Source: Limosilactobacillus sp.
GTDB taxonomy: Bacteria > Bacillota > Bacilli > Lactobacillales > Lactobacillaceae
Reading direction: 5' to 3'
DNA length: 64,000 nt
Assembly: GCF_022482365.1 (NCBI RefSeq)
Contig: NZ_JAKVPE010000001.1
Span: 310,001 to 374,000, forward strand
The translations under genes and the position numbers were made by a program. Under the pieces are notes generated by a model that worked only from the letters and a program-made list of their open reading frames with translations, searched no databases and was not told the DNA's origin. Shown here piece after piece: positions 20,796 to 25,550 of this stretch (the stretch's first letter is position 1; every line of letters begins with the position of its first letter).

Positions 20796-21469
20796 AGGCG
20801 GAGTTGATCGCCGGCAAGAAAACTGTCGTCGAATTTGGTCAGGGGATGAAAATAACGTTTGCCGAACTCATCGATCAGGCCGTGGAAGTCCTGGGCCATG
20901 GCGGCAGTGAAGTCGGCCGGCAGGGTAACCCGGTTGGCCAGCTGCTGGTAGGACGTCAGACCCGTGGCCCCCAGGCAGGTAAAAAGGGTCCGGGCATACT
21001 TGTCACTGATAAAGGTGGGAACCTCAAAAACGTATGTGAGCAGCACGTCGGCGGTCTCCGGGCCAATCCCGTGCAACTTGAGCAGTTGCGTGCGGAGTCC
21101 CTTCCCGTATTTTTGCCGGATCGCTGGGTAGTCGTAGTCAAACTGCCGCAGCCAGGAAAAGACGCTGACCAGGGCCCGACTCTGCAGCCAGGAAAAGACG
21201 CTGACCAGGGCCCGACTCTTATTGCGGTAGAAACCGGCGGGCCGAACCAGATCGTGGAGCTTGTCGGGCGTTAGTGCCAATAGTTGGTTGGGATTCAGGC
21301 TGGTTTCCTTGCGCAGCAGGGCCAGGGCCTGGTCGGCGTTGCGCCAGTTAGTGTTTTGGATCAGGATCGCGCCGATGATGATCTCTTCCTTGGAGTCGGC
21401 CGGCCACCAGCCGGACGGGCCCATCTGGCGGCGCATCTTTTGGTAAAGCGTGATGAGGGTAATCTGCAT
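20789..21469 (-). CDS. Endonuclease III-related (HhH-GPD) DNA glycosylase with internal 12-residue duplication
   Basis: A 226-residue HhH-GPD protein. The helix-hairpin-helix is KLHGIGPETADVLL (about 131-145) and the catalytic-type Asp is in FISDKYARTLF (about 156). The loop Lys of true endonuclease III is absent (GPETAD) and there is no C-terminal 4-Cys Fe-S cluster, so it fits the endonuclease III-related (COG2231-like) monofunctional glycosylases. Residues 85-96 and 97-108 are nearly identical 12-residue copies encoded by a perfect 36-bp tandem repeat. The frame is open to 21553, but ATG 21469 with GGAAAGGA is the likely start. Confidence 0.85.
   Translation of the reverse strand: MQITLITLYQKMRRQMGPSGWWPADSKEEIIIGAILIQNTNWRNADQALALLRKETSLNPNQLLALTPDKLHDLVRPAGFYRNKSRALVSVFSWLQSRALVSVFSWLRQFDYDYPAIRQKYGKGLRTQLLKLHGIGPETADVLLTYVFEVPTFISDKYARTLFTCLGATGLTSYQQLANRVTLPADFTAAMAQDFHGLIDEFGKRYFHPLTKFDDSFLAGDQLRLK
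21148..21219 (-). repeat. Perfect 36-bp tandem duplication inside the endonuclease gene
   Basis: Bases 21148-21183 and 21184-21219 are identical and adjacent. The unit is 12 codons (SRALVSVFSWLQ/R), so the frame is kept. This looks like a recent slippage or unequal-exchange event. Confidence 0.98.
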
Positions 21470-22634: not shown

Positions 22635-23189
22635 TTAATTGCCGGTTTTCTTTAGGGAATTAAGGAAGGCGGGACTGCTGGTAATCTTGGCGGCATAGTC
22701 GACCATTTCATCAATCCCCGGTTCCATCCCCCGCTTAAACCACTCGATCACCAGATTATAGGCAATCCCGTTCCAGGCGGCGTGAATGATGTAGTCCTCT
22801 TGGCCTGGCAAAATTTCCTGGTTCAGCAATGCAAGAATTTCTGCTTCCAAACCGGCATTGATGATGATCGTCAGCTTTTTTCGCTGCTCGTAAACAGCAT
22901 TGAAAGTGTAGCGCCAGCCCTCTTGCAGGCCGGGGAAGAAACTATTAAAGCAGTTGGTGGTGACGCTTTGGATTAATTCTTCTAAAATGTCATTTTTGGA
23001 CTTGTAATTGTTGTAAAAAGCGGAGCGCGAAACGCCGGCCACCTTGATTAATTCAGTAATCGTAATTTTGGCGAAATCTTTTTTCCGCATCAAAATGAAG
23101 AGGCCTTCCTGAATCGACTCCCGGACGATCTGACGCGATTCGTGGTTGGCCTTTTTTAGTGCGGCAATTTGTTTGGCAGTTTTAGTCAT
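22635..23189 (-). CDS. TetR/AcrR-family regulator
   Basis: A 184-residue regulator with a TetR N-terminal HTH: KDFAKITITELIKVAGVSRSAFYNNYKSK (split here as an ITITELIKVAGVS helix and a RSAFYNNYKS recognition helix). The C-terminal ligand domain is TetR_C-like and unassigned. The start is ATG 23189, preceded by AAAGGAT; the frame runs on to 23234 without an RBS. It is divergent from the tandem unknown genes at 23318, which it probably controls; a palindrome ACAAATTTGT (23213-23222) lies in the gap. Confidence 0.9.
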   Translation of the reverse strand: MTKTAKQIAALKKANHESRQIVRESIQEGLFILMRKKDFAKITITELIKVAGVSRSAFYNNYKSKNDILEELIQSVTTNCFNSFFPGLQEGWRYTFNAVYEQRKKLTIIINAGLEAEILALLNQEILPGQEDYIIHAAWNGIAYNLVIEWFKRGMEPGIDEMVDYAAKITSSPAFLNSLKKTGN

Positions 23190-23212
23190 GTGAAGTGATC
23201 CTTTCTGTGAAT

Positions 23213-23222
23213 ACAAATTTGT
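23213..23222. promoter_or_regulatory. Candidate operator ACAAATTTGT
   Basis: A perfect 10-bp palindrome in the divergent gap between the TetR gene and the unknown tandem genes, just before the TetR ribosome-binding site. Candidate for autoregulation; weak evidence. Confidence 0.3.
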
Positions 23223-23317
23223 GCTTCTGTCCACGCGGTTCCTTAAACCATTGTCATCCCCCTTATTATAAAGTAAACTACGGATAAAACAACTGTATTA
23301 CCGGAAAGGAGAACGAC

Positions 23318-24055
23318 ATGATTAAGGTTTCGATCAGAGGAAAAGAATTCACCGAGACGGATATTAAGGAATGGGAAGCCTGGCGAGTAGGAGTCTCAAA
23401 GAAATTCTTTGAAAAGAAATTAAACAAGCAGCTCGACATTAAGAATGCGGATGAGCTTGCCGCATTTAAAGCAACGATTCCCCAAGCGGAGATGCGCCGC
23501 CTGATGCAAAAACAGGTCGACTTTACGGCCACTGGCAGCAATGTCGTCGTTCGAATGTCCAGGGGAAAGCGCAAGATCAGCGTGACGGAGATGGATGTTG
23601 ACTTTTGTGATTCAAAGACGCTGCGCAAGATGTACGATGACATGATGCTCAATAACACGGAAGCCAATCGCCGGGCATGCCTGCGGGCCAACCCGGATCA
23701 TTACCTGCTGCAGGGTCTGAATGAGACCGATCAAGAGGTGATTGAGCTGACGGGTGGTTTGCCATGGGCCAGCCGGTTCGTCATTCGTTACGGTGACTTT
23801 GCCGGTTTACAATCGAAAAAGGATCCGGACTACCCTTACCAAGCAGCTGGGGTCTCGTACCTGCCGAGTGGCCTGGCCATCGGTGCCGTTCGTCACCAGA
23901 TGAAGGATACCGCGACGGGGTGCCACATCAAGCTAATGGTTGAATTTCCAATCTTGATGCCGGATAAGAACATTCGCGCCCACGAGTACCATTTAGCGTG
24001 CGAATTCTACAATTGGTTTAGCGAAATCGAAAGAAGAATTAAGGAGGGTGAATAG
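23318..24055 (+). CDS. Unknown protein A of a tandem paralogous pair
   Basis: A 245-residue soluble protein that I do not recognise. It begins MIKVSIRGKEFTETDIKEWE. Shared with its neighbour at 24057: ANPDHYLLQG, QEVIELTGG, a DPDYPYQ block, then AVRHQMKDTATG, EFPIL and RAHEYHLACEF near the C-terminus. No signal peptide or membrane segment. Conserved His (PDH, RHQ, and two in the HEYHLA block) and acidic residues could form a metal or catalytic site. It is the first gene of a likely operon facing TetR. ATG 23318 follows GGAAAGGAG. Confidence 0.85.
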   Translation: MIKVSIRGKEFTETDIKEWEAWRVGVSKKFFEKKLNKQLDIKNADELAAFKATIPQAEMRRLMQKQVDFTATGSNVVVRMSRGKRKISVTEMDVDFCDSKTLRKMYDDMMLNNTEANRRACLRANPDHYLLQGLNETDQEVIELTGGLPWASRFVIRYGDFAGLQSKKDPDYPYQAAGVSYLPSGLAIGAVRHQMKDTATGCHIKLMVEFPILMPDKNIRAHEYHLACEFYNWFSEIERRIKEGE

Positions 24056-24056
24056 G

Positions 24057-24866
24057 ATGGAAGCTGAAGTATACTTTAGCGGCAAAAAGGTGGCGCCAAA
24101 AGAAATTGAAGATTGGGAGAAACGGCATTCGGTCGCAATGGCCAAGCGCTTGCAGAAGTTTTATCACATCGATGTCAGCCCATTCTTTGTGCGGAGCATT
24201 CCCGAAACCGACGTCTTGACCGTTCGCAAGAAGCTCGTCGATTACAAAATGCAGCTAAGCAATGAAGAAATTCGCGGGAAACTAAAGCACGTCTTTCAGC
24301 TGACTAACACTGCCGAGGACCTGATGGCGACTTTAGGGCGGCACAAGCGCAAGTCCAGCGTTGTGGAAATTGTCGTTAAAAACGTGCCCGCTAATTTTGA
24401 CCTGAAGAAGTTTGTTGATGAGATCCAGGCCCTGATGACCTCGACCTCCGCAAAGGACCGCCGGATTGGTTTGGCAGCTAGTCCAGACCACCTGCTTCTC
24501 GAAGGGCGGCCACACAATTCCCAGGAAATCGTTGAGATTACTGGTGGGGCCCCGATGGAAGCCCACTTTATCAACTATTACGGTGTTGAAGCGGGGATCA
24601 ATTATCCACGGGATCCGGAATACCCCTACCAAATGGTCGGCATTAGCATGATGACGAATAACACCATTGCGGGGGACATTCGCCATCAGTACAAGGAGGA
24701 GGGGACGGGCTTTCGGGCCAAGTTGGCAGACGAATTCCCCGTTTTCTTCACCAGCTCCATGATCCGCGAGCACCAGTTCCACTTGGCCAACGAATTCTTA
24801 GTGTGGTACAAGTATCTGCTGGATAATTGGAAACAATCGCCCCAGCAAGTCAAAAACAGGAAGTAG
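24057..24866 (+). CDS. Unknown protein B of a tandem paralogous pair
   Basis: A 269-residue protein paralogous to the one at 23318; the gap is one base. Conserved blocks: ASPDHLLLEG, QEIVEITGG, NYYGVEAG, DPEYPYQMVG, GDIRHQYKEEGTGF, DEFPVFF and REHQFHLANEF. Identity is modest in the N-terminal half and high in the C-terminal half, where the His positions are kept. The start is ATG 24057, 10 bp after AAGGAGGG. Possibly a heterodimer or a duplicated enzyme. Function unknown. Confidence 0.85.
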   Translation: MEAEVYFSGKKVAPKEIEDWEKRHSVAMAKRLQKFYHIDVSPFFVRSIPETDVLTVRKKLVDYKMQLSNEEIRGKLKHVFQLTNTAEDLMATLGRHKRKSSVVEIVVKNVPANFDLKKFVDEIQALMTSTSAKDRRIGLAASPDHLLLEGRPHNSQEIVEITGGAPMEAHFINYYGVEAGINYPRDPEYPYQMVGISMMTNNTIAGDIRHQYKEEGTGFRAKLADEFPVFFTSSMIREHQFHLANEFLVWYKYLLDNWKQSPQQVKNRK

Positions 24867-24875
24867 GTAATTGGA

Positions 24876-25550
24876 ATGAAGATTATGGTAATTGGCGCCT
24901 TTGGTCGGGTTGGACAGAAGGTCGTTCGACTGGCCCAGGCACAGGGCATGCAGGTCACCGCTGTTGGCCACCATGACCATCCGGAAGTTGATCTTGGTCA
25001 GGCAACCGTCTTAATCAAAGACGTTAAGGAACTGACGCAAAAAGAGATCACTGGTTATGACGCTATTTTGGACGCAACGGCCGGCTGGGATGAGGATAGC
25101 GCGGCTAATGTCTACCTCGGACTATGGCACTTGGCCCAACTATTGAGCAGCTTTAAGAACCAGACGCGCCTGCTGAAGGTTGGCGGCACGAATACGCTCT
25201 TCATTAATCCTGAACACACACTAACCCTCCAGAGCCTATCCAGCTATTACCCAGCAAAGTATAAGTTCATGTGTGACGCCCATCAGGAAGCACTCGACAT
25301 TCTGCGGCGCTATTCCAACCTCCTGTGGACCTATGTTACCCCGGCATATAATTTTGACTCTCAGGGAGTGGCCACCCACTCCTATCACGTTGCGGGGGAG
25401 GAGTTTACTCCTGTTCCGGGCGGCGATGATGGCAAGGACGACTACATTAGCTATACGGACTTTGCCCAGGGAATTGTCGACCTGATCGCCAACCACCAAT
25501 TCATTCGCCAGCGGATTACCCTCAGCCATGGCGATAAGCCCGTTGAGTAA
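24876..25550 (+). CDS. NAD(P)-binding Rossmann-fold protein
   Basis: A 224-residue short-chain/NmrA-type Rossmann protein: MKIMVIGAFGRVGQKVVRLA is a GxxGxxG dinucleotide motif, followed by DAILDATAGW and LLKVGGTNTLF. It resembles the YwnB-like NAD(P)H-binding reductase group. It starts 9 bp after unknown gene B and closes the operon, so it may be the redox partner of the two unknown proteins. A perfect hairpin terminator follows. Confidence 0.85.
   Translation: MKIMVIGAFGRVGQKVVRLAQAQGMQVTAVGHHDHPEVDLGQATVLIKDVKELTQKEITGYDAILDATAGWDEDSAANVYLGLWHLAQLLSSFKNQTRLLKVGGTNTLFINPEHTLTLQSLSSYYPAKYKFMCDAHQEALDILRRYSNLLWTYVTPAYNFDSQGVATHSYHVAGEEFTPVPGGDDGKDDYISYTDFAQGIVDLIANHQFIRQRITLSHGDKPVE

Follow-up and report, generated by a model that had tools for sequence, protein, structure and literature searches.

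What do two adjacent genes encode when their products share a series of conserved sequence blocks with each other and match no named protein family? The question arises from a 64,000-nucleotide stretch of a Limosilactobacillus sp. genome (NCBI RefSeq assembly GCF_022482365.1, contig NZ_JAKVPE010000001.1, positions 310,001 to 374,000; referred to here as the window), in which gene 1 (23318..24055, forward strand) encodes a protein of 245 amino acids and gene 2 (24057..24866, also forward strand) one of 269 amino acids counted from the ATG. They lie one base apart, as the first-pass annotation of this DNA had noted, if gene 2 starts at the ATG at 24057; an alternative GTG start at 24048 would make the two open reading frames overlap. 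The proteins share 32% identity over 249 aligned columns (E 8e-45, far beyond chance), and all five blocks picked out earlier were present in both (gene 1 / gene 2: PDHYLLQG / PDHLLLEG, QEVIELTGG / QEIVEITGG, DPDYPYQ / DPEYPYQ, RHQMK / RHQYK and HEYHLACEF / HQFHLANEF). Neither protein had a significant match in Pfam, NCBIfam or PHROGs. The earlier view that they belong to no recognised family therefore stands for curated families, but a distant known family can be proposed, the DAPG/phloretin hydrolases of PF18089. The other matches from Pfam, NCBIfam, PHROGs and the PDB sequences were weak and judged to be chance, among them PDB entry 8ga6, which we take to be a designed protein, for gene 2 (E 9e-5 over 41 residues), and TamB in Pfam (E 0.0026 in one of 42 family members).

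The two genes belong to a family which is widespread and still unnamed. Four copies were found in the window's own genome, and gene 2 had matches at E ≤ 0.001 in three of 50 genomes of the genus (the own genome included, and one of the three being weak). A four-sequence profile matched 46 of 397 Lactobacillaceae genomes spanning 22 of 40 genera, and when a large protein set was searched with a profile, 109 proteins matched, none of them carrying a precomputed Pfam annotation. In named genomes, 88 loci were detected and 80 of them kept (one of these, L165, yielded no family ORF), and 81 of the 87 family ORFs of the named loci were added later to the family set. These loci extend the family across Bacillota, Actinomycetota and Pseudomonadota, with members in Limosilactobacillus kribbianus (where one protein is 99% identical to gene 1, so that the window comes from a close relative of this species), Lactococcus, Enterococcus, Staphylococcus and Bacillus relatives, as well as in Nocardia, Mycobacterium, Gordonia, Rhodococcus, Amycolatopsis, Variovorax, Sphingopyxis and others. 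Plasmid records add 22 members from Streptomyces and one from Tsukamurella; among the 20 plasmid matches listed, 18 carry a name and this is always "hypothetical protein". Our search of the literature, in which subscription papers were largely outside coverage, found no paper on the family or on PF18089 in Lactobacillus.

Six residues stand out when these proteins are aligned: H128, E143, H193, H222, H225 and E229 of gene 1, which are equivalent to H145, E160, H210, H239, H242 and E246 of gene 2. In gene 1, the codons of the first two lie in the forward-strand stretch 23699..23746 (H128 at 23699-23701 and E143 at 23744-23746), and those of the remaining four in 23894..24004 (H193 at 23894-23896, H222 at 23981-23983, H225 at 23990-23992 and E229 at 24002-24004). 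Amongst the first 47 relatives, P126, H128, E143, H225 and E229 were invariant and H193 was kept in 43; in the larger set of 230 sequences (223 of them unique), H128, E143 and E229 were each kept in 229, H193 in 223, H222 in 227 and H225 in all 230. The conserved histidines and acidic residues seen from two proteins are therefore a property of the family, and random loss of the shared histidines in homologues, which would have counted against this, is ruled out by the finding that just nine of the 230 sequences depart at any of the six positions. We judge a metal or acid-base site, as suggested earlier, to be the most likely use of these residues.

A few members depart from this pattern or carry additional features. 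The clearest degenerate copy is the second tandem gene of Mycobacterium gordonae (L158:8729-9466), which has lost E143, H193 and H222 and lies beside an intact copy, of which it is likely to be a pseudoenzyme partner. A 469-amino-acid protein from another lactobacillus (L076:7054-8463), left out of the 230-sequence set, consists of two fused family domains and has Glu at the H193 position in both halves. Two actinobacterial members (L125:6589-7467 and L156:6086-7000) have an N-terminal motif which we take to be twin-arginine-like, and judging from this motif may possibly be exported.

We placed the pair within the family using a midpoint-rooted tree of the 230 sequences, which assigns the two genes to separate clades at a tree distance of 3.6 from each other. 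Gene 2's own clade, the second of the unnamed family to be represented here, includes six sequences, and the clade that joins the two genes holds 80 of the 230 (support 0.92). This rules out a recent tandem duplication: the genes are adjacent and paralogous, as the description of them as tandem paralogues held, but they are ancient paralogues from different clades and not the products of a simple tandem duplication. Since these ancient members have been kept adjacent here, and as two family domains are fused in L076, a heteromer or pseudo-dimer of family members is possible.

The order of the conserved residues (H...E...H...H-x3-E) is one that we took to resemble the metal site of PhlG, the 2,4-diacetylphloroglucinol hydrolase, a likeness noted before the families were compared. 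Searches of Pfam and the PDB gave no significant match of this kind: the best PF18089 hit in the Pfam scan was at E 0.11 in one of 42 family members, the gathering score of 22.7 bits was reached by no family member tested, and PF18089 was absent from the Pfam listing for 30 further members. Genes 1 and 2 had no PF18089 match at E ≤ 10, none was found in their own genome, and neither PhlG nor phloretin hydrolase was listed when the family profile was run against the PDB. To test the likeness we compared profiles, for which PF18089 proteins were gathered from Bacillota and Lactobacillaceae genomes (the first of these proteins matches the PDB phloretin hydrolases 5xe5/5xey and PhlG 3hwp). PF18089-like proteins from genomes that hold the named loci were added afterwards (10 of the 49 genomes match at E ≤ 0.01, nine of them over the cut-off), and PF18089 set D2 took in every eighth of the other listed homologues. 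A length filter left 149 of the 155 family sequences, and 126 of the 128 from PF18089, for the profiles. Amongst the proteins collected were a long flavoprotein-like ORF with the PF18089 domain at its C-terminus (L084), two proteins for which PF02910 is listed together with PF18089 (P0179 and P0198), and two divergent PF18089 proteins whose genes stand in tandem in another lactobacillus (L092 and L106 of genome G166).

The profile–profile alignments scored above their controls. With smaller profiles, 178 columns were aligned with a score of 34.6 (P 4.4e-4), compared to at most 22.5 in 150 column shuffles and at most 18.6 in 27 unrelated neighbour families (19.4 with the larger family profile), and smaller pairs with explicit match columns scored 28.2–31.4 (P 8.8e-4 to 3e-3), slightly under the 29.4–34.6 obtained otherwise. 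The best pair, produced by hhalign from 149 family members and 32 PF18089 proteins, reached a score of 40.8 (P 2.9e-5, probability 73.5%); reversing the profile gave 17.2, and none of 60 column shuffles exceeded 23.1. Comparisons of individual sequences pointed in the same direction, with 120 of 135 unique PF18089 proteins outscoring all reversed decoys when searched with the family HMM and, in the reverse direction, 40 of 223 unique family sequences scoring above every reversed decoy with the PF18089 HMM (138 of 154 and 41 of 230 when duplicates are included), the individual E-values being weak both ways. The alignments, computed with no hint of these positions, pair five residues of gene 1 in order with residues that are near-invariant in PF18089 (numbered here on L083: H128–H114, E143–E145, H193–H190, H225–H237 and E229–E241), and their partners on the 3hwp chain, counted along the alignment, are at 137, 168, 222, 278 and 282. 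These presumably correspond to the PhlG site residues H129, E160, H214, H270 and E274, which are the chain positions minus eight. E143, H193, H225 and E229 fell on their L083 partners in all seven unmasked comparisons that we tracked; H128 did so in only four of the seven, with a posterior of 0.44 in the best one, and this has slightly lowered our confidence in kinship with PF18089 as an explanation.

The profile–profile search that the first-pass annotation had proposed does point to PF18089, but most of the signal is lost when the key columns are masked. With the five columns masked, the four smaller profile pairs dropped to noise (P 0.02 to 0.28); the best pair fell to a score of 27.4 (P 0.0033) with E143 and H193 still paired when one side was masked, and to P 0.0062 in the wrong register when both were. 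As masking removes most of the signal, the case for homology rests mainly on the active-site columns. It is here that convergence must be considered, with the family being an unrelated group of metalloproteins which arrived at the H...E...H...H-x3-E pattern independently, since masking takes the scores to or near noise and identity within the profile alignments is only 15–18%. However, the order of the residues, the H-x3-E pair, the surrounding context (D/E-H-Y/F and E-x-x-G) and the length of the proteins all agree, and the reversed, shuffled and unrelated controls score lower; we regard convergence as unlikely. On the comparison of sequences, the family appears to share a metal-binding active site with enzymes that cut the C–C bonds of phenolic compounds.

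One feature of PF18089 is missing from the family. Ahead of the first histidine, 29 of 32 PF18089 proteins carry a W[WYF]x2-3W signature, which none of the 230 family members has, and because of its absence the substrate should differ; as no member tested passes the Pfam cut-off either, we have not filed these proteins as PF18089 members. The family probably works like PF18089, to which it would be a sister family whose substrate pocket differs.

The flanking genes are as first described. Upstream and divergent is a TetR-family regulator gene (22635..23189, reverse strand; TetR_N PF00440, E 1.2e-6), which starts at the ATG at 23189, or further out at the GTG at 23234, and clusters with TetR-type genes that adjoin family genes in other lactobacilli. 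Downstream is gene 3 (24876..25550, forward strand), encoding an NAD(P)-binding Rossmann protein (NAD(P)H-binding PF13460, E 5.4e-11), which begins 9 bp after gene 2 and is likely to be in the same operon as the pair. The divergent intergenic region (23190..23317) is, from its sequence, the presumed operator/promoter, and includes a perfect 10-bp palindrome spotted by eye (ACAAATTTGT at 23213-23222); a repeat search of the region also found an imperfect 17-nt inverted pair (23199-23215/23294-23310) and a 10-nt pair (23182-23191/23316-23325). A promoter scan of the region gave scores no better than shuffles, and the repeat search and scan established no conserved operator. Elsewhere in the window, an HhH-GPD (endonuclease III-like) DNA repair gene contains a perfect 36-bp tandem duplication (21148-21219) which repeats 12 residues in frame.

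Linkage to a regulator is common in the family. At 86 of 119 loci, a gene for a TetR, MarR or MerR regulator is found no more than 500 bp from the family member. The Lactobacillaceae set, of which the window is part, contributes 29 of its 40 loci to this count and the named set 57 of its 79; the control, made up of other genes at the Lactobacillaceae loci, gave 57 of 391. Regulators were detected by models built from clusters, with cluster representatives checked in Pfam, and the 119 loci include at least four genomes twice (L115/L045, L131/L046, L127/L050 and L130/L080). In all five annotated plasmid regions examined, a TetR gene adjoins a family gene, being divergent and directly upstream in the four from Streptomyces and next to the second family copy in the one from Tsukamurella; in the window's own genome, a further copy (L004) has close to it a TetR-like gene whose Pfam scores fall short of the cut-offs. 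Because a regulator adjoins most family members, the unit looks inducible, as had been proposed, and the neighbourhood favours a small-molecule enzyme; its role may be in metabolism or detoxification. The same linkage to one-component regulators could suggest that the proteins are non-catalytic sensors or carriers which bind a ligand and partner the adjacent regulator, and the second M. gordonae copy without E143, H193 and H222 would suit such a role. The retention of the key residues in 223–230 of 230 sequences is nonetheless stronger than a binding pocket alone should need, and we consider this reading very unlikely.

Other neighbours bear on the reaction that the family might catalyse. SDR, zinc-type alcohol dehydrogenase and CrtC-type lipocalin proteins are encoded near the family gene in some relatives: SDR genes are found 3' of the closest Clostridia-type relatives (L107 and L108), and the third copy in the window's genome (L003, G000:C1 at about 451.3-454.7 kb) directly follows a CrtC/AttH-type lipocalin gene whose cluster is also represented near family genes in several lactobacilli (L047, L054, L055, L061 and L063; the CrtC identity was checked in Pfam for L003 and L054 only). 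Together with the tryptophan-rich signature missing throughout the 230 sequences, such neighbours would fit proteins with the same Bet v1-like fold and metal site which, alongside neighbouring oxidoreductases, act as an isomerase, cyclase, hydratase or ester/lactone hydrolase. This seems doubtful to us, as most members retain the complete five-residue set of the hydrolases and there is no specific pointer to another reaction.

Our preferred explanation, which we hold with slightly better than even confidence, is that genes 1 and 2 represent an uncharacterised family which is remotely related by descent to the DAPG/phloretin hydrolases, themselves Zn-dependent and Bet v1-like, and which responds to a small acyl-phenolic-like inducer, the fold, metal, reaction and inducer all being ones that we infer. 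H128, H225 and E229 would hold the metal, and E143 and H193 would help it to activate a water molecule; this would attack the carbonyl of a small hydrophobic compound (an acyl-phenolic or similar ketone) and release an acid. The gene 3 Rossmann protein may then handle the substrate or product in a redox follow-up step. The same compound might also bind the divergent TetR protein and switch the operon on, in the way that PMC8003664 describes for DAPG with PhlH and phlG. A bolder form of this explanation, which is possible though tentative, has a metal-dependent C–C hydrolase family spread across phyla with a rebuilt pocket and, commonly, its own ligand-sensing repressor, represented here by a heteromeric pair of ancient members acting on a dietary or host phenolic or ketone ahead of a reductase. 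If the preferred explanation is true, the sister family in lactobacilli, enterococci, staphylococci, nocardiae and proteobacteria is an untapped class which would hold possible polyphenol- or xenobiotic-cleaving enzymes, and in many members the adjoining sensor gene could be used to find the substrate. To our knowledge, Zn-dependent C–C hydrolases with a Bet v1-like fold are few and have been characterised only on acyl-phloroglucinol compounds.

The phloretin hydrolases (5xe5/5xey and the PF18089 proteins of Clostridia) share the same five positions with the family and also occur in Bacillota, but no family member tested reaches the Pfam cut-off. A PF18089-like gene was found in four of the 121 neighbourhoods searched (L138, L168, L179 and L182; two are over the Pfam cut-off), and in L168 and L179 it directly adjoins the family gene. 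The divergent PF18089-like proteins from Nocardia and Rhodococcus (L138, L168 and L179), whose genes lie near family genes, have their similarity to PF18089 in its N-terminal half (profile positions about 24–109), which is the part missing from the family. Compared with PhlG (3hwp), the family has the five catalytic-site positions in the same order by alignment and proteins of similar size; unlike PhlG, it shows neither the conserved tryptophans nor the Arg-Tyr before the first histidine, gives no significant single-sequence match to PhlG, and has neighbourhoods in which, as viewed without a dedicated search, we noticed no DAPG synthesis genes. On the account given in PMC8003664, PhlG depends on zinc and has a Bet v1-like fold, and the TetR protein PhlH represses phlG through an operator between both genes until DAPG binds, with the plant compounds apigenin and phloretin also raising phlG expression through PhlH. 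The window pair similarly adjoins a TetR gene, in an arrangement like that of phlH–phlG, where the PhlH operator lies between the two genes (PMC8003664).
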